The position numbers and the translations under genes are program-made. 64,000 nucleotides of DNA from Lachnotalea glycerini (GTDB lineage Bacteria; Bacillota; Clostridia; Lachnospirales; Lachnospiraceae): assembly GCF_003201285.1 (NCBI RefSeq), contig NZ_QICS01000002.1, forward strand, positions 62,001-126,000, written 5' to 3'. The notes beneath the pieces were generated by a model. That model had not been told where the DNA came from, made no database searches, and saw only the letters and a program-made list of their open reading frames with translations. Of this stretch, positions 12,136 through 59,345 are shown piece by piece. Numbering within the stretch: the stretch's first letter is position 1; each line of letters begins with the position of its first letter.

Positions 12136-12237
12136 TCAAGTAATAGTAGGCAAACTTATTGAAAAATAAGGACGCAAAGCTTGAAGCCTGTTGAGATAAT
12201 CTTTTTTCTAAAAAGAGGACTTTATGGCGGTTCGGTT
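12136..12237 (+). promoter_or_regulatory. Cyclic di-GMP-I (GEMM) riboswitch aptamer
   Basis: The aptamer core is unmistakable. GGCAAAC (12149-12155) opens a stem CTTATT/AATAAG closed by a GAAA-type loop, followed by GGACGCAAAGC (12170-12180). These are the invariant elements of the GEMM P2 helix that sandwich c-di-GMP. P3 follows (GCC near 12186 paired with GGC near 12227). The P1 helix is weak and not clear by eye. A Rho-independent terminator begins at 12238, so the switch should control transcription read-through into the pilus operon. The sign (on or off with ligand) cannot be read from the sequence. Confidence 0.9.
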
Positions 12238-12270
12238 GCAATCAGACAATTTTGTTTGGTTGCTTTTTTA
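12238..12270 (+). terminator. Riboswitch-controlled intrinsic terminator
   Basis: GCAATCAGACAA (12238-12249) pairs with TTGTTTGGTTGC (12252-12263) over 12 positions, with two G-U pairs, followed by TTTTTTA. It directly abuts the aptamer and acts as its expression platform. Confidence 0.85.
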
Positions 12271-53944: not shown

Positions 53945-53982
53945 AAAAAGGTATGGAAGATGAAAATTTTCCATACCTTTTT
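53945..53982 (+). terminator. Rho-independent terminator of the importer operon
   Basis: AAAAAGGTATGGAA (53945-53958) pairs with TTCCATACCTTTTT (53969-53982), a 14-bp perfect stem with terminal U-tract. Confidence 0.9.
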
Positions 53983-54135: not shown

Positions 54136-54164
54136 TTGAAAACTACTATTTATATTTGTATAAT
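54136..54164 (+). promoter_or_regulatory. Promoter of the SorC/kinase/RuBisCO-like operon
   Basis: TTGAAA (54136-54141), 17 bp, TATAAT (54159-54164). The palindrome TAAGCGCTTA (54176-54185) sits near the transcription start and could be a repressor roadblock. Confidence 0.75.
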
Positions 54165-54207
54165 ATATATAGTAATAAGCGCTTAATACAGATAGAAAGG
54201 AAAAAAT

Positions 54208-55143
54208 ATGGATAGTAATGAGTTGAGATTATTAGTAAAGATTTGTAAAATGTATTACTTAGAAGATTTGAGTCAAAATGAGATAGCAAAGCAGCTATTC
54301 ATTTCTCGTCCGCAAGTAAGCAAGCTGATTTCTAAAGCAAAGCAAAAAAATATTATTTCATTCCAAATAAATGACCCATTTTCAGAAGAAGATAAGGCAG
54401 CGGAGCAATTGAAGAAACGTTATCATATTGAGGATGTGCTGGTTGTAGATACAAGGGATGTAAACAGTGAATGCGCTTCAGAGAAGTTAGCTAAAAATAT
54501 GTCTTTTCTAATTACTCGTTATGTGTCCAATGGTAGTGTAATCGGTATATCTGCAGGCTATACTGTTGCTGCTTGTTCCAAATATTGTAATATATATAAT
54601 TGTAAGAATTTGCAATTTATACCATTAGTTGCAGGTCAATCCTTTGAGGGGGAGAATTGGTATGCAAATCAAAGCTGCCAACGCTTTGCCAGTCGTCTGA
54701 AAAGTAAGTATATGCTGCTTAATACACCTTTGATTATAAGAAATACGCAAGCACGAGAAGAACTCGAGAATAATATTGCAGTAAGACCGGTACTTGACTG
54801 CTATGATCATCTGGATACGATTCTACTTGGAATTGGACAGGCAACTCCAGAATCCACGTTAGGAAAATGTTCTATCAGCAAGGATGAGATTAACTGGGCT
54901 TATGAGCATGGAGTTAAGGCGGTAATTGGGGCTTCCTTTATCGATGCTGGAGGAAATGAAATTAGTGGGACACAAAGTGATTTTTTTATTGGCATAAAAG
55001 TCGCCCAGATTAGAAAGTGTAAATCAGTCGTTGCAGTAGCAACGGGAATTCATAAGGTGGAAGCGATTAAGGCGACATTAAAAGGGGAATATGTAAATGC
55101 ATTTTGCACAGACTTAGTTACTGCACAAGAGTTATTAAAATGA
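54208..55143 (+). CDS. SorC-family sugar-responsive transcriptional regulator
   Basis: The 311-residue protein has an N-terminal helix-turn-helix (MYYLEDLSQNEIAKQLFISRPQVSKLISKAKQ) and a sugar-phosphate-binding domain with YVSNGSVIGISAGYTVAA, DTILLGIGQATPEST, GASFIDAGGNEI and VVAVATGIHKVEAIKATLKG. Such proteins sense the phosphorylated sugar or sugar acid of the pathway they control. It leads the operon with the FGGY kinase (16 bp downstream), so the kinase product is the likely inducer. Confidence 0.92.
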   Translation: MDSNELRLLVKICKMYYLEDLSQNEIAKQLFISRPQVSKLISKAKQKNIISFQINDPFSEEDKAAEQLKKRYHIEDVLVVDTRDVNSECASEKLAKNMSFLITRYVSNGSVIGISAGYTVAACSKYCNIYNCKNLQFIPLVAGQSFEGENWYANQSCQRFASRLKSKYMLLNTPLIIRNTQAREELENNIAVRPVLDCYDHLDTILLGIGQATPESTLGKCSISKDEINWAYEHGVKAVIGASFIDAGGNEISGTQSDFFIGIKVAQIRKCKSVVAVATGIHKVEAIKATLKGEYVNAFCTDLVTAQELLK

Positions 55144-55159
55144 CCAGTGGAGGTATTTT

Positions 55160-56692
55160 ATGGGAAGATATTATATTGGATTTGATTGTGGAACGCAAAG
55201 TACAAAAACAGCAATTTACAGCGAAGATACGACCTGTGTAGCAGAAGAAATGATACCAACTAATATTAACTACCCAAAGGCAGGTTGGGCGGAAATGGAC
55301 GCAGACCATTATCTGGAATCAGTCAGAAAGGGAATAAAGGCATGTCTTACAAAAAGTGGTATTGATCCAAAGGATGTACGCGCCATATGCGGTGACGGAA
55401 TTATTTGTGGAATTGTAGGTGTTAATGAGGATGGAAAAGCGATAACACCATATATTCCTTATCTGGATTCACGTACTGCACAGGATGCGAAATGGATTAA
55501 TGAAAATTTAGAGCCTATTTGGATTGAAGAGAGTGGAAATGCATCTGTAGCACCATTTTATCCGCCCCTATTGGCTCGCTGGCTGATTAAAAATCATGAG
55601 GAATTCAAACAAAGCGGTGTTAAAATCATGAATAATGGGCCATACGTATTGTCTCGTCTTGCAAATTTGAAAGCGAAAGATGCATTTATTGACTGGGCAA
55701 CTTTGTCAGGGTGGCTGATTGGATATAAGGCAGAGGAAAAAGTTTGGTCTAAGGAGCAGATGAATCTGTTGGAGATTCCGATGGAGTTATTACCCAAAAT
55801 TGTTAAACCTTGGGATATTGTTGGTACTTTAAGTGAAGAGGAAGCTTCTTTAACAGGCCTGCCAGCAGGAATTCCGATTGTGGCTGGAGCAGGGGATACG
55901 ATGCAGTCCAATCTGGGCTGTGGACTTGTTGAGACAGGTATGGCAGCGGATGTAGCCGGAACCGCAGCTATGTTTACGATAATGGTAGATGGAATTAATT
56001 TAGAACTTAGCAAAAATTCAGATTTGTTATTCTCAATTGGTACATTACCAGATACTTATTTTTACTGGGGTTATATTCGAACAGGCGGCTTATCCTTACG
56101 CTGGTTTCGCGATAATATTTGTGGGCGTGAAGGAGACAACTCTTTCTACGATGAAATACAGGAATTGGCGCAGAAAGTATCGGTAGGCTCAAATGGAACG
56201 TTATTCTTCCCATATCTTCAAGGTGGCGGTGGTGATTTAGAAAACGCCAGCGGATGCTTTTTGAATATGACGACCAAAACAGATCAAGGAGAAATGTGGC
56301 GTGCAATTTTAGAGTCAATAGCTTATGAATATTTGTCACTTGTTAACAGTTTAAGAGAGAATGGAATCAGTGTTGATAAAATTATTATAACAGAAGGCGG
56401 AAGTAAGAGTAACTTATGGAATCAGATTAAAGCAGATGTTTTGGAGGCTAATGTTTTTACTCTAAAACGTAAAGAAGGAGCAGTGATGTCAAATATTGCA
56501 TTGGCAGCCTATGCAGTAGGAGATATTAAGGATTTAAAGGATGCAATTTCAAAATGGATTGAAGCAAGAGATACCTTTACACCCAATATTCAAAATACAA
56601 AGAATTATCAAAATATTTTTGCCATTCAGCAAAAACTGCTTAAGGAAAATATGAAAGATGCTTTTTTATCACTTGCCAAATTAAACCAGTAA
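55160..56692 (+). CDS. FGGY-family carbohydrate kinase, substrate unknown
   Basis: 510 residues. The N-terminal ATPase loop YIGFDCGTQSTKTAIY, catalytic-region DWATLSGWL, VAGAGDTMQSNLGCGL, GTLFFPYLQGGGGD and the FGGY-like ITEGGSKSNLWNQIKADVL are all present, so the enzyme should be active. FGGY kinases act on ketoses, polyols and similar C3-C7 sugars; xylulokinase-like features are visible but substrate residues cannot be assigned. Genes for a membrane protein, a HAD phosphatase and a RuBisCO-like protein follow, so the phosphorylated product may feed that enzyme. No isomerase or dehydrogenase gene is present in the cluster. Confidence 0.88.
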   Translation: MGRYYIGFDCGTQSTKTAIYSEDTTCVAEEMIPTNINYPKAGWAEMDADHYLESVRKGIKACLTKSGIDPKDVRAICGDGIICGIVGVNEDGKAITPYIPYLDSRTAQDAKWINENLEPIWIEESGNASVAPFYPPLLARWLIKNHEEFKQSGVKIMNNGPYVLSRLANLKAKDAFIDWATLSGWLIGYKAEEKVWSKEQMNLLEIPMELLPKIVKPWDIVGTLSEEEASLTGLPAGIPIVAGAGDTMQSNLGCGLVETGMAADVAGTAAMFTIMVDGINLELSKNSDLLFSIGTLPDTYFYWGYIRTGGLSLRWFRDNICGREGDNSFYDEIQELAQKVSVGSNGTLFFPYLQGGGGDLENASGCFLNMTTKTDQGEMWRAILESIAYEYLSLVNSLRENGISVDKIIITEGGSKSNLWNQIKADVLEANVFTLKRKEGAVMSNIALAAYAVGDIKDLKDAISKWIEARDTFTPNIQNTKNYQNIFAIQQKLLKENMKDAFLSLAKLNQ

Positions 56693-56710
56693 ATCAAGGA
56701 GGAAATTATA

Positions 56711-57226
56711 ATGAAATTTCATAAATTTATCGTAATTCCGTTTTCAATTGGTGTTTTAGCATTTATTTTACAGTTAGTGGATCAAAGCTTATCGCCGATT
56801 CTTTCACCTGATGGGAACTCTGGTTTTGCATGGATATCTTTTCAGGCTTGGGCAGTTTATTTCTTCGCAGGCTGTAATATGAAAGGTGGCTTAAAGTCCT
56901 ATTTGAATTATATTACAGGAATTGTAGCAGCAATATTTATGATATTGTTGGGGCAGTTTGTAACTCCTATGCTTGGCAGCTTTTCCATGCCGTTTGCTCT
57001 ATTGGTTGGCTGTGTTATATTTTTAAGTCTGGAAAGGGTAGAGCTGTTTAATTTATTGCCTCCAATGTTTATCTCGGCCGGCATCTATTTTGGAATCATT
57101 ACATATGTGCCAAATGCCAACTTTATAAATGTAGCAGTTATCGTTGCCCTATATGCATTTTTTGGCCTGTTTCTTGGCTACATTTCCATTCTGTTCAGAC
57201 AATGGTATGAGGAGAAGCAAAAATGA
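56711..57226 (+). CDS. DUF1097-like small integral membrane protein
   Basis: The 171-residue protein has five or six membrane segments, with the pattern of the YcdZ/DUF1097 family (IPFSIGVLAFILQLVD; SFQAWAVYFFAGCNMKGGLKSYLNYITGIVAA; FNLLPPMFISAGIYFG). Function is unknown; members are often beside catabolic genes and could be small transport or channel proteins. Here it could move the substrate or a product of the FGGY/RuBisCO-like pathway, because no other transporter gene lies in this operon. Its stop overlaps the HAD start (ATGA). Confidence 0.7.
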   Translation: MKFHKFIVIPFSIGVLAFILQLVDQSLSPILSPDGNSGFAWISFQAWAVYFFAGCNMKGGLKSYLNYITGIVAAIFMILLGQFVTPMLGSFSMPFALLVGCVIFLSLERVELFNLLPPMFISAGIYFGIITYVPNANFINVAVIVALYAFFGLFLGYISILFRQWYEEKQK

Positions 57227-57855
57227 AATTAGCAATATTTGATTTTGACGGAACAATATTTGAATCTGCTTGCTATTGGGAAAAAATCATTGATGACTAT
57301 TTAAGAAAACGCAATATTACACCGCCTGAGAATATTTTAAGCATTGTAAAACCATTAGGTATTTCTGGCGCGGCGAAGTTGTTTAAAGAAAGGTTTTCCC
57401 TAAACGAGGAGCAGAGTGAAATAGTTACAGACTGGAGAACCAAAATGGGCAGAAACTATCACGAGGTTATTCCGCTCAAGGCTTATGCCTATGAATATAT
57501 TTCTAAGCTTCAAAAAGAAGGAACTAAAATATGTCTGGCAACTGCGATGGAACGGGACTTTGTAATGCCTGCAATGGAACGCACAGGAATCTCTAAGTTA
57601 TTTGACAGTATTGTTACCATTGCAGATGTGAATGCAAATAAGAACAGTCCTAGGATATTTCAGTATTGTGCAGAACAATTTCAGGCAGAACCGTATGAAT
57701 GTACTGTTTTTGAAGATTCACCTCAGGCAGCAATCATATGTAAGGAAGCAGGGTTTCATGTGATCGGGGTATATGATGGCGTGTGTAAGAATGACTGCGA
57801 TCTAATGAAGCCGGTTTGTGACCAATTTATTTGTTCCTTTTATGAATTAATTTAA
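57223..57855 (+). CDS. HAD-superfamily phosphatase (beta-phosphoglucomutase/phosphoglycolate phosphatase-like)
   Basis: 210 residues. HAD motif I is LAIFDFDGTIFES (DxD nucleophile and acid), motif II CLATA near 105, the motif III Lys near DVNANKNSP, and motif IV VFEDSPQAAIICKEAG. The helical cap between motifs I and II is the C1 type of the phosphoglycolate phosphatase/beta-phosphoglucomutase group. It probably removes phosphate from a small product or by-product of this operon. Glycolate phosphate or a sugar phosphate are guesses. It overlaps the DUF1097-like gene by four bases. Confidence 0.85.
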   Translation: MKLAIFDFDGTIFESACYWEKIIDDYLRKRNITPPENILSIVKPLGISGAAKLFKERFSLNEEQSEIVTDWRTKMGRNYHEVIPLKAYAYEYISKLQKEGTKICLATAMERDFVMPAMERTGISKLFDSIVTIADVNANKNSPRIFQYCAEQFQAEPYECTVFEDSPQAAIICKEAGFHVIGVYDGVCKNDCDLMKPVCDQFICSFYELI

Positions 57856-57954
57856 GAAGTAAAATAGATTGACCGAAAAAGTGACGACAGTAGAAGATAA
57901 TAGATTAATGCATTTATGTAGTATGAAGTCATATCAATTAAAGGAGATATTATT

Positions 57955-59265
57955 ATGAAGAGAAATTATGATCCAATTATTTTTTGTCAAAGTGAATCAC
58001 TTGATTTAGAAGATTTTGTTATAGCTACTTACCTAATGTCAGCGCAAACAAAGGATGTATTGATGAGAGCAGGCGCTATGGCGGTGGAACAGACAACGGG
58101 AACCTGGCTTAGAGTTCCGGACGAAACAGATGAAGTTCGCCGTAAATTTGTCGGACGTGTTATCAATGTATTTAATGTTCCAGGTTATGAAGCTACTTGT
58201 CCTGATAAAATAAGAACCTGTGTGATACAAATAGCATTTCCGTGGAGAAATTTTGGGCAACAGTTACCAGAGCTTTTATCTACCGTGTTTGGTAATATTT
58301 CAATCATGGATAATTTAAAGCTTCTTGATTTACAGTTTCCAAAGAGCTTTACAGCCGGCTTCAAAGGACCACGCTTTGGTACACAAGGACTAAGAGATCG
58401 TCTTGGAATACAGGATCGTCCGTTAACATTGGCTATGATTAAGCCTTGTACAGGTATTCCGATAGATGTTATTGAACGACAGTTTTATAATTTGGCATTA
58501 TCAGGAGTTGATATGGTTAAGGATGATGAATTAATAGCAGATCCTATCCATGCTCCTTTGTTTAAACGTATTGAAGCTTGTCAGCGAGCAGCAGAGAAAG
58601 CTTATAAGGAAACAGGTAAAAAGGTTCTTTACATTCCCAATATTACAGATCGTCAGGATCGTATGTTTGAGAAAGCACATAAAGCAATTGACATGGGAGT
58701 CGAAGCTCTTATGGTTAATGTTCATGCAACAGGCTATGGTACAATGAGTGCTTTGGCTGAAGATGACAGTATTAAAGTACCATTGCTTGCACATCCTTGC
58801 TACAGTGGAACAAGCTATATGGGAAGTTCGACAGGAATGTCCTCTCATATCATACATGGAAAATTTATGCGATTAGAAGGTGCAGATATGGTTGTTTATA
58901 ACTGTTCATATGGCAAAGTTCCTAGTCTGGTAGAACGTTATGTAAGAATTGGACAAAGTCTGTTATCAGATTTCCACGGTTTAAAACCAACATTCCCAAG
59001 TCCGGCGGCAGGTATGCATCCAGGCTTAGTTGGACAGGTAATGGATGATTTAGGACCAGATATTATCATTGGAGCAGGGGCTTCTATGCATGCTCATCCA
59101 ATGGGCTTGAAGGGCGGTGTTGCAGCACTGAACCAGGCAGCCGAAGCTTGGAAACTTAATGTCACACCACAAGAATATGCGCAGGATCATGAGGAGCTTA
59201 GAATATCCATTGATCAATGGGGTGTATATGATCCAAATAAGTCAATTTTTGAATTAACAAATTAA
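57955..59265 (+). CDS. RuBisCO-like protein (form IV RLP)
   Basis: The 436-residue homologue of the RuBisCO large subunit keeps the catalytic Lys163 (AMIKPCTG), but Cys165 stands where true RuBisCO has its second lysine (K177). The metal-site motif Lys189-Asp190-Asp191-Glu192 (VKDDE) is intact, so a carbamylated lysine and Mg2+ are expected. His280 aligns with H294. The loop-6 and phosphate regions differ (HGKFMRLEGAD 301-311; PSPAAGMHPG 349-358; GAGASMHAHPMG 373-384). It is thus not a CO2-fixing enzyme but an enolase, isomerase, decarboxylase or transcarboxylase on a phosphorylated sugar derivative. The neighbours do not include methionine-salvage genes. Confidence 0.9.
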   Translation: MKRNYDPIIFCQSESLDLEDFVIATYLMSAQTKDVLMRAGAMAVEQTTGTWLRVPDETDEVRRKFVGRVINVFNVPGYEATCPDKIRTCVIQIAFPWRNFGQQLPELLSTVFGNISIMDNLKLLDLQFPKSFTAGFKGPRFGTQGLRDRLGIQDRPLTLAMIKPCTGIPIDVIERQFYNLALSGVDMVKDDELIADPIHAPLFKRIEACQRAAEKAYKETGKKVLYIPNITDRQDRMFEKAHKAIDMGVEALMVNVHATGYGTMSALAEDDSIKVPLLAHPCYSGTSYMGSSTGMSSHIIHGKFMRLEGADMVVYNCSYGKVPSLVERYVRIGQSLLSDFHGLKPTFPSPAAGMHPGLVGQVMDDLGPDIIIGAGASMHAHPMGLKGGVAALNQAAEAWKLNVTPQEYAQDHEELRISIDQWGVYDPNKSIFELTN

Positions 59266-59276
59266 TAAGATAATAT

Positions 59277-59345
59277 AAAAGGACCAAATCCAAGGAAAGC
59301 TTTTTCAAGCATTTTAAGGAAGTGGTCCTTTTTACATTGACAATA
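59277..59345 (+). terminator. Rho-independent terminator after the RuBisCO-like gene
   Basis: AAAAGGACCA (59277-59286) pairs with TGGTCCTTTT (59333-59342) across an internal A/T-rich loop that can itself fold, followed by Ts. Confidence 0.75.

Follow-up and report, generated by a model that had tools for sequence, protein, structure and literature searches.

A RuBisCO-like protein of Lachnotalea glycerini apparently belongs to an uncharacterised clade in a recurrent module with an FGGY kinase

A stretch of 64,000 nucleotides (nt) from Lachnotalea glycerini (contig NZ_QICS01000002.1, positions 62,001 to 126,000), referred to here as the window and used for all coordinates, carries at 54208-59265 five genes that lie head to tail on the + strand and encode, in order, a SorC-family regulator, an FGGY carbohydrate kinase, a DUF1097 protein, a HAD-family phosphatase-like protein and a RuBisCO-like protein (RLP). 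A first-pass annotation had grouped these genes as an operon, and the grouping was borne out, with all five genes in place and gaps of 16, 18, -4 and 99 nt between them in gene order. The RLP apparently belongs to an uncharacterised clade in a recurrent FGGY-RLP module, and we consider here what the kinase and the RLP may do together.

The five genes and the ends of the operon

The first gene (54208..55143) encodes a protein of 311 amino acids (aa) that is a member of the SorC regulators, which have a sugar-binding domain and an N-terminal DNA-binding part. It matches PF04198 at 4e-50 (170.8 bits against a cut-off of 27), residues 2-311 align with the solved SorC structure 2w48, DeoR 8r7y is a further solved relative, and the N-terminal helix-turn-helix matches fall under the Pfam cut-offs. 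The second gene (55160..56692, 510 aa) encodes a clear FGGY kinase (PF00370 and PF02782; FGGY_N, 129.1 bits against 28.8; FGGY_C, 67.9 against 27), which is the proposed maker of the RLP substrate. It is followed by genes for the DUF1097 protein (56711..57226, 171 aa; PF06496, 1e-15), which is possibly involved in transport, and for the HAD-family protein (57223..57855, 210 aa; PF13419). The RLP gene (57955..59265, 436 aa) comes last, and its product falls in form IV of the RuBisCO superfamily, with matches to PF00016 (5.6e-40; 137.9 bits against 30.1) and PF02788 (41.8 against 20.7).

Terminator-like repeats flank the operon. A hairpin of 17 pairs (53945..53982, +) stands between it and the upstream ABC-transporter genes, and an imperfect inverted repeat of 26 nt, 73% complementary and ending in TTTT, follows the RLP gene (59277..59332, +), ahead of a GH43-esterase gene; this second repeat, which lies outside the terminator-like sites found in a separate scan, is a possible operon terminator. 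The GH43-esterase and ABC-transporter genes were therefore excluded as operon parts and are probably separate units. Upstream of the SorC gene, a sigma-70-like promoter site (TTGAAA-17-TATAAT; 54136..54164, +) is identified solely by its 11/12 consensus matches, and promoter-like sites are no commoner in the region than chance would give (16 against 21.5 in shuffles). Just downstream of this site, the palindrome GTAATAAGCGCTTAATAC (54172..54189, +) is a possible operator, whose core we take to resemble a CcpA catabolite-repression (cre) site.

The RLP active site and the placement of its clade

The P1 site of RuBisCO, for the C1 phosphate, is formed by T65, W66, G381 and G403-404, and the P5 site, for the C5 phosphate, by R295, H327 and S379; E60, N123 and K334 act at the CO2/carboxylate position. 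We aligned the window RLP with a form I RuBisCO (L119) with MAFFT and give its residues with their RuBisCO equivalents; the codons that follow are on the + strand. Retained are Glu45 (58087..58089; RuBisCO E60), Asn114 (58294..58296; N123, a Lys in MtnW), Lys163 (58441..58443; K175), the KDDE metal motif at residues 189-192 (58519..58530; K201-E204, with K201, D203 and E204 as K189, D191 and E192) and the loop-6 lysine, Lys321 (58915..58917; K334), together with T65 (T50), W66 (W51), H294 (H280), G381 (G353) and G403 (G375). Substituted are K177 (Cys165, codon 58447..58449), R295 (Pro281), H327 (Val314), S379 (Ala351) and G404 (Ala376). Most P1 residues are thus retained and the P5 residues are gone. 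With C165, P281, V314 and A351, the protein lacks features of the carboxylating RuBisCOs of forms I-III, which have K177, R295, H327, S379 and two phosphate sites. RuBisCO H294, R295, H327 and K334 are described as substrate-binding in PMC8698309.

The alignment confirmed the earlier reading of Lys163, the KDDE motif and a Cys165 in place of the second active-site lysine. The phosphate loops, also said to be altered, are so at P5 (R295, H327 and S379 replaced) but not over most of P1, where T65, W66, G381 and G403 stand and only G404 has become Ala; the retained E60-N123-K334 set did not figure in that description. The pairing of Lys321 with K334 was found both by MAFFT and by an independent BLASTP alignment. 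The predicted structure has the RuBisCO fold (pLDDT 84, pTM 0.85, 13 aligned sequences), with RLP and RuBisCO structures among its matches and MtnW 2oem as the best solved match; the loop that bears Lys321 (model residues 318-324) is of low confidence, as expected of the mobile loop 6.

In a maximum-likelihood tree of 67 RLP rows, the window RLP falls in a clade of 8 rows (clade A; support 100/99), apart from MtnW, annotated OiaX and the DeepYkr group. The tree keeps the clade separate from OiaX and the MtnW enolases, against which the first-pass annotation had suggested placing the RLP by a similarity network; OiaC, also named there, is not known to be an RLP. Five further clades, B-F, lie nearer to clade A, and A-F together make up 39 of the 67 rows; the names are coined here, for groups defined by alignment and identities ahead of the tree. 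Left out of the tree were L069, which has an internal stop, L112, a partial sequence, L101 and L102, which are more OiaX-like, and L019-L021, which duplicate the genes of L044-L046. Neither the tree nor the FGGY count given below includes L009 and L026. The RLPs of L059, L121 and L144 dropped out in ORF calling or the similarity step, as did six of one set of 12 loci (L103-L107 and L109), of which four others (L098-L100 and L108) are in the tree. Across the 8 clade-A members, E45, T50, W51, N114, K163, C165, KDDE, K321, G353 and G375 are invariant.

The family models agree with the separation. For OiaX, the NCBIfam model NF042437 scored 164.2 bits against a cut-off of 700. The DeepYkr 1,3-isomerase RLPs form one branch of 8 rows (100/100) that does not include the window; we recognised this group by PDB 3qfw, which we take to be Rhodopseudomonas palustris RLP1. 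The nearest solved relatives are the MtnW enolases, and it could be argued that the RLP is a divergent 2,3-diketo-5-methylthiopentyl-1-phosphate (DK-MTP-1-P) enolase of methionine salvage, with the HAD protein as its MtnX: the closest solved structures and NCBIfam models are those of MtnW (2oej, 1.3e-83; PRK09549, 367 bits), and a phosphatase, MtnX, follows MtnW on a Bacillus velezensis plasmid. However, both MtnW models fell below cut-off (PRK09549, 367 of 409 bits; a second model, 324 of 513.6), Asn114 replaces a residue that is Lys in 4/4 MtnW rows, the E45 and K321 positions are Gly and Ser in MtnW, no salvage gene (neither MtnB nor MtnD) is among the five, and mtnA was not detected in the window genome, which is 97.9% complete. 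The first-pass view that the neighbours are not methionine-salvage genes is upheld by these findings, and a methionine-salvage role, disfavoured by models, residues and the genome search for mtnA, is highly improbable. Of the clade-A genomes, 5/8 have mtnA, on contigs other than that of the RLP, and 2/8 have a DUF1537 kinase elsewhere. In one genome, G680, mtnA and a class II aldolase-family gene are about 100 nt apart (contig C4:2234-3851, again not the contig of the RLP), a pair that has the look of that of the dihydroxyacetone phosphate (DHAP) shunt.

Clade A is rare. Within the window's family, 3 of 299 genomes carry it, one being the window's own (22 of the 299 had some match at E<=0.001); it was found in no further genome among 391 of its class, where 11 others had RLPs of other clades (E<=1e-60), and in 2 more among 398 of its phylum (E<=1e-130). 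Searches among relatives of two carriers already found gave 2 of 248 genomes for the order of a Christensenella carrier and 1 of 52 for the family of a Synergistaceae carrier, the carrier being counted in each case. This low frequency and the scattered hosts suggest that clade A has spread by horizontal transfer. The window's genome has one RLP match; because no RLP was found in a genome of the same genus (G144), the operon is probably accessory. In the open-access literature, with subscription papers outside the scope, we found no paper on clade A, none on an RLP with an FGGY kinase, apionate or Lachnospiraceae, and no characterised member of clades A-F.

The FGGY kinase and the chemistry that may follow it

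The kinase falls short of the xylulokinase model, with 238.7 bits against the XylB equivalog cut-off of 380, and it sits in a 9-row branch of its own (100/100) apart from Escherichia coli XylB. The first-pass annotation had seen an FGGY kinase beside the RLP in a sugar operon outside methionine salvage, and this link recurs throughout clade A: in 8/8 of its loci the RLP has an FGGY kinase within 7 kb, on the same strand in 7/8, the remaining one (L049) being 5.2 kb away on the opposite strand. In the same count, which covers 57 loci, the figures were 0/4 for clade B, 3/8 for C, 0/4 for D, 1/8 for E and 5/7 for F, and 0/3 for MtnW, 0/5 for OiaX and like, 1/5 for DeepYkr and 2/5 for unplaced RLPs. 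Four clade-A genomes hold 2 to 11 FGGY genes each (E<=1e-30), from which simple arithmetic gives a chance proximity of about 2 to 12 percent per locus. With an RLP that matches MtnW at 1.3e-83 and a pairing that recurs in every clade-A locus, neither the homology nor the pairing is due to chance.

The kinases themselves are not all alike, falling into three non-orthologous subfamilies in a tree that has several long branches and in which the program flags false joins for the FucK/RhaB part. The window type is common to the window, L027, L047 and L141 (62-71% identity to the window's); a LyxK-like kinase occurs with a short-chain dehydrogenase/reductase (SDR) in L049, L140 and L142, and joins E. 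coli LyxK at 100/99, LyxK being a long branch; and L028 has a third kind, accompanied by an AP_endonuc_2 protein that scores under the cut-offs of keto-sugar epimerase models. Because every clade-A RLP has an FGGY kinase nearby, and these kinases are of three kinds, we think it very probable that the two enzymes work one after the other on the same compound; the kinase appears to have been swapped while the RLP was kept, which would suit an RLP that takes up a phosphorylated product within the reach of all three kinds.

The rest of the operon varies. A SorC regulator 51% identical to that of the window adjoins FGGY-RLP in L047, and a YhfZ-type regulator is present in L027, L028, L049, L140 and L142. 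Since BLASTP showed no relative of the DUF1097 protein in the remaining 7 loci of clade A, and since a relative of the HAD protein (54% identical) occurs only in the L027 operon (the HAD protein of L028 is of another kind), these two are not core parts. Class II aldolase/epimerase genes (PF00596), whose products could carry an L-pentulose phosphate further, were matched in 8/8 clade-A genomes, but 12/14 controls matched too and the count is therefore uninformative.

The carboxylate residues bear on what the pair might do. E60 and K334 occur together in 24/24 rows of clades A-D and in 7/7 OiaX-like rows; annotated OiaX has K334 and an Asp at E60 (2/2), MtnW has neither (4/4), the DeepYkr group has E60 and an Arg at K334 (8/8), clade E has lost both (8/8), clade F has kept E60 and lost K334 (7/7), and K334 is present in 5/6 unplaced rows. 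In clade A, the retention of E60, N123 and K334 with loss of the second phosphate site favours decarboxylation or C-C cleavage, which the E60/K334 pair makes plausible. We tentatively propose that a keto sugar acid leaves the kinase as a monophosphate and that the RLP decarboxylates or splits it.

The operon would then be a short catabolic route. SorC, to judge from its family, would sense a sugar phosphate and control the unit, and the FGGY kinase would phosphorylate a keto sugar or keto sugar acid that is imported or made internally. In the RLP, Lys189 would be carbamylated as in RuBisCO and would bind Mg2+ together with Asp191 and Glu192; the substrate phosphate would occupy the P1 site, and a Mg-stabilised enediolate would form. 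A phosphorylated 3-keto or branched sugar acid would thereby be decarboxylated or hydrolytically cleaved at a C-C bond, yielding a ketose phosphate or a phosphoglycerate-type compound that passes into central metabolism, and the HAD protein might strip phosphate from this product or from a dead-end side product. The order has a precedent in E. coli, where LyxK adjoins the 3-keto-L-gulonate-6-phosphate decarboxylase SgbH, and D-2-hydroxyacid dehydrogenases, which fit sugar-acid metabolism, lie near the RLP in L049 (opposite strand) and adjoin it in L037. The LyxK-like kinases of clade A are likewise in keeping with a keto sugar acid. With 3-oxo-isoapionate 4-phosphate as substrate, RLPs are known to carry out decarboxylation and transcarboxylation/hydration (PMC6302742).

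Several observations weigh against this proposal. The nearest relatives of the kinase outside the clade (50-53% identity) occur in 5/299 family genomes, none of which has an RLP match; their surroundings (L135-L139) are housekeeping-like, with a sirtuin-like neighbour in 3/5 as judged by eye, and give no substrate clue. The usual substrates of FGGY kinases are ketoses and polyols. K334 also contacts the P1 phosphate in RuBisCO, and its retention need not mean a carboxylate. The OiaX-like rows retain R295, H327 and S379, and annotated OiaX retains R295, all of which are lost in clade A. Within 7 kb in the window, L027 and L047, and in the stretch of L141 that was covered, we saw no relative of the L049 SDR or of its hydroxyacid dehydrogenases, so that nothing was seen to make a 3-keto acid in the loci with the window-type kinase. 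Finally, clade B keeps E60 and K334 and yet has no FGGY kinase within reach, and its L030 locus holds phosphotransferase system (PTS) genes and glycerol-phosphate-dehydrogenase-like flavoproteins that suit ketose phosphates.

A rival reading, almost as likely in our view and likewise tentative, makes the RLP an isomerase or epimerase of sugar phosphates, which would apply only the enolisation step of RuBisCO chemistry to a ketose monophosphate made by the kinase, moving the carbonyl or inverting C3 and delivering an intermediate of the pentose phosphate pathway (ketose 1-phosphate to ketose 5-phosphate, for example, or L-erythrulose 1-phosphate to D-erythrulose 4-phosphate). FGGY specificity in general suits it, and the retention of most of P1 with loss of P5 fits a ketose 1-phosphate. 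The small operons of L047 and L141 hold little beyond kinase and RLP; an SDR adjoins the RLP in L049, L140 and L142; the AP_endonuc_2 protein of L028 is epimerase-like, if below cut-offs; L142 has a galactitol-PTS-IIC-like permease gene (300 of 542 bits); RhaB-like kinases accompany four clade-F RLPs (L051, L054, L057 and L058); and the PTS genes and Glp-type flavoproteins of L030 point the same way. There is also a proven example, since the DeepYkr RLPs of Rhodospirillum rubrum and R. palustris are 5-methylthioribulose-1-phosphate 1,3-isomerases (PMC5893883). However, K334 is Lys in clades A-D and Arg in all 8 DeepYkr rows, E204 is Glu in clade A rather than the His/Asp of DeepYkr, and the tree separates the two. 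We regard the isomerase/epimerase and carboxylate-handling readings as nearly equal, and the distribution of E60 and K334 leads us slightly to prefer the latter.

Another scheme, which we hold unlikely, is salvage of 5-deoxy or otherwise 5-modified sugars, the kinase making a 5-deoxyribulose-type 1-phosphate from which the RLP yields 1-deoxyxylulose 5-phosphate. It shares the DeepYkr precedent (PMC5893883). In L141 (4974-10407), genes for an ADP-ribosylglycohydrolase and a xanthine/uracil-type permease lie directly 5' of FGGY and RLP, and this arrangement suggests that a glycoside may be the sugar source in that species; the contig ends soon 3' of the RLP. The same hydrolase family occurs with the clade-F RLPs of L051 and, by clustering, L052. 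Against it, a non-exhaustive look at the annotated neighbours of the other clade-A operons found no such gene, mtnA is on contigs other than that of the RLP in the 5/8 genomes that have it, and the SDR and LyxK-like partners do not fit.

The first-pass annotation had instead pointed to apiose/apionate catabolism, with an FGGY kinase in place of the usual DUF1537 kinase. In such a route the kinase would phosphorylate 3-oxo-isoapionate, and the RLP would decarboxylate or hydrolyse the product as OiaX does. RLPs with such activities exist (PMC6302742), and K334 is retained as in OiaX; decarboxylation or C-C cleavage remains plausible on the strength of E60/K334. The specific link to apiose found no support: the OiaX model scored far below cut-off, the branch is separate, R295 is lost from the window RLP, none of the five genes encodes a triose-phosphate isomerase (TIM), RpiB or a dehydrogenase, and a search of the window genome detected no kinase of the DUF1537 type. 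A kinase-swapped route is more closely resembled by the clade-E locus L037. There, an FGGY kinase, a D-2-hydroxyacid dehydrogenase, the RLP and genes that cluster with TIM and RpiB form one run (the TIM and RpiB assignments rest on L043 members of the same clusters), which makes L037 the better candidate for a kinase-swapped apionate-type route. For the window operon, we consider this route very unlikely.

Other RLP loci and known systems

FGGY-RLP pairing recurs in distantly related bacteria, and other RLP loci show further arrangements. The four clade-F RLPs with rhamnulokinase-like FGGY kinases keep K177 and have Ser/Thr at K334; L057 also has genes for a sugar-isomerase-like protein and an E1/E2 acyl-transfer complex, a context hinting at a deoxy-sugar 1-phosphate route. 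In L030, the RLP gene lies between those for the flavoproteins and genes for a PHP protein, a Cof-type HAD protein and PTS proteins (IIA, IIB, IIC of the galactitol/ascorbate family, and enzyme I). In Vibrio nigripulchritudo, a plasmid typed as conjugative carries a DeepYkr-group RLP (L118) with genes for an FGGY kinase and of the thiamine-pyrophosphate/transketolase type on its flanks, and in L120 the RLP is preceded by mtnK, mtnA and split transketolase genes. Elsewhere in the window, a cyclic di-GMP-I (c-di-GMP-I) riboswitch (12139-12243, +; 55.5 bits, gathering threshold 35) lies about 200 nt 5' of a run of type IV pilus-like genes (12439 onward, judged by eye), which look as if they were c-di-GMP-switched.

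Only a handful of RLPs have been characterised, with reactions that comprise proton abstraction, isomerisation, decarboxylation and oxygenation (PMC10176493). A new route, in which an FGGY kinase phosphorylates a sugar acid or branched sugar and an RLP that has the CO2-handling residues E60, N123 and K334 intact but a single phosphate site decarboxylates or splits the product, is put forward here with reserve; if correct, it would mean that RuBisCO chemistry serves heterotrophic sugar breakdown, on substrates of a class that belongs neither to methionine salvage nor to apionate catabolism, and that the same active-site signature extends over a set of uncharacterised RLP clades, A-D. Kinase and RLP form a compact module of two enzymes that lends itself to testing, and one substrate screen could yield a new RuBisCO-superfamily reaction together with a new sugar pathway.

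Among known systems, MtnW (YkrW; Geobacillus kaustophilus 2oem, Bacillus subtilis 2zvi) comprises the nearest solved relatives in sequence and fold, and shares with the window RLP the retention of K175, KDDE, W66, G381 and G403 and the loss of R295 and H327. It differs in having Lys at N123, Gly at E60, Ser at K334 and a retained S379, and in its mtnX/mtnB-type neighbours with no FGGY kinase within 7 kb. The annotated OiaX loci (Rhizobium L113 and Marivivens L122) are alike in that an RLP with K175 and K334 adjoins a kinase in sugar-acid catabolism, but that kinase is of the DUF1537 type (four-carbon acid sugar kinase), not FGGY, and OiaX retains R295. The DeepYkr RLPs, of which those of R. 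rubrum and R. palustris (RLP1) act on a ketose 1-phosphate (PMC5893883), share E60, N123 and K175 but differ at K334 (Arg), at E204 (His/Asp) and at T65/W66 (gaps), and form a separate branch. The LyxK-SgbH pair of E. coli offers the likeness of an FGGY kinase followed by a decarboxylase of a sugar-acid phosphate, and LyxK-like kinases accompany the RLPs of L049, L140 and L142. LyxK is an L-xylulose kinase that is also a 3-keto-L-gulonate kinase, and SgbH is a decarboxylase of the orotidine monophosphate decarboxylase (OMPDC) type rather than an RLP; the window kinase, for its part, is not LyxK-like.

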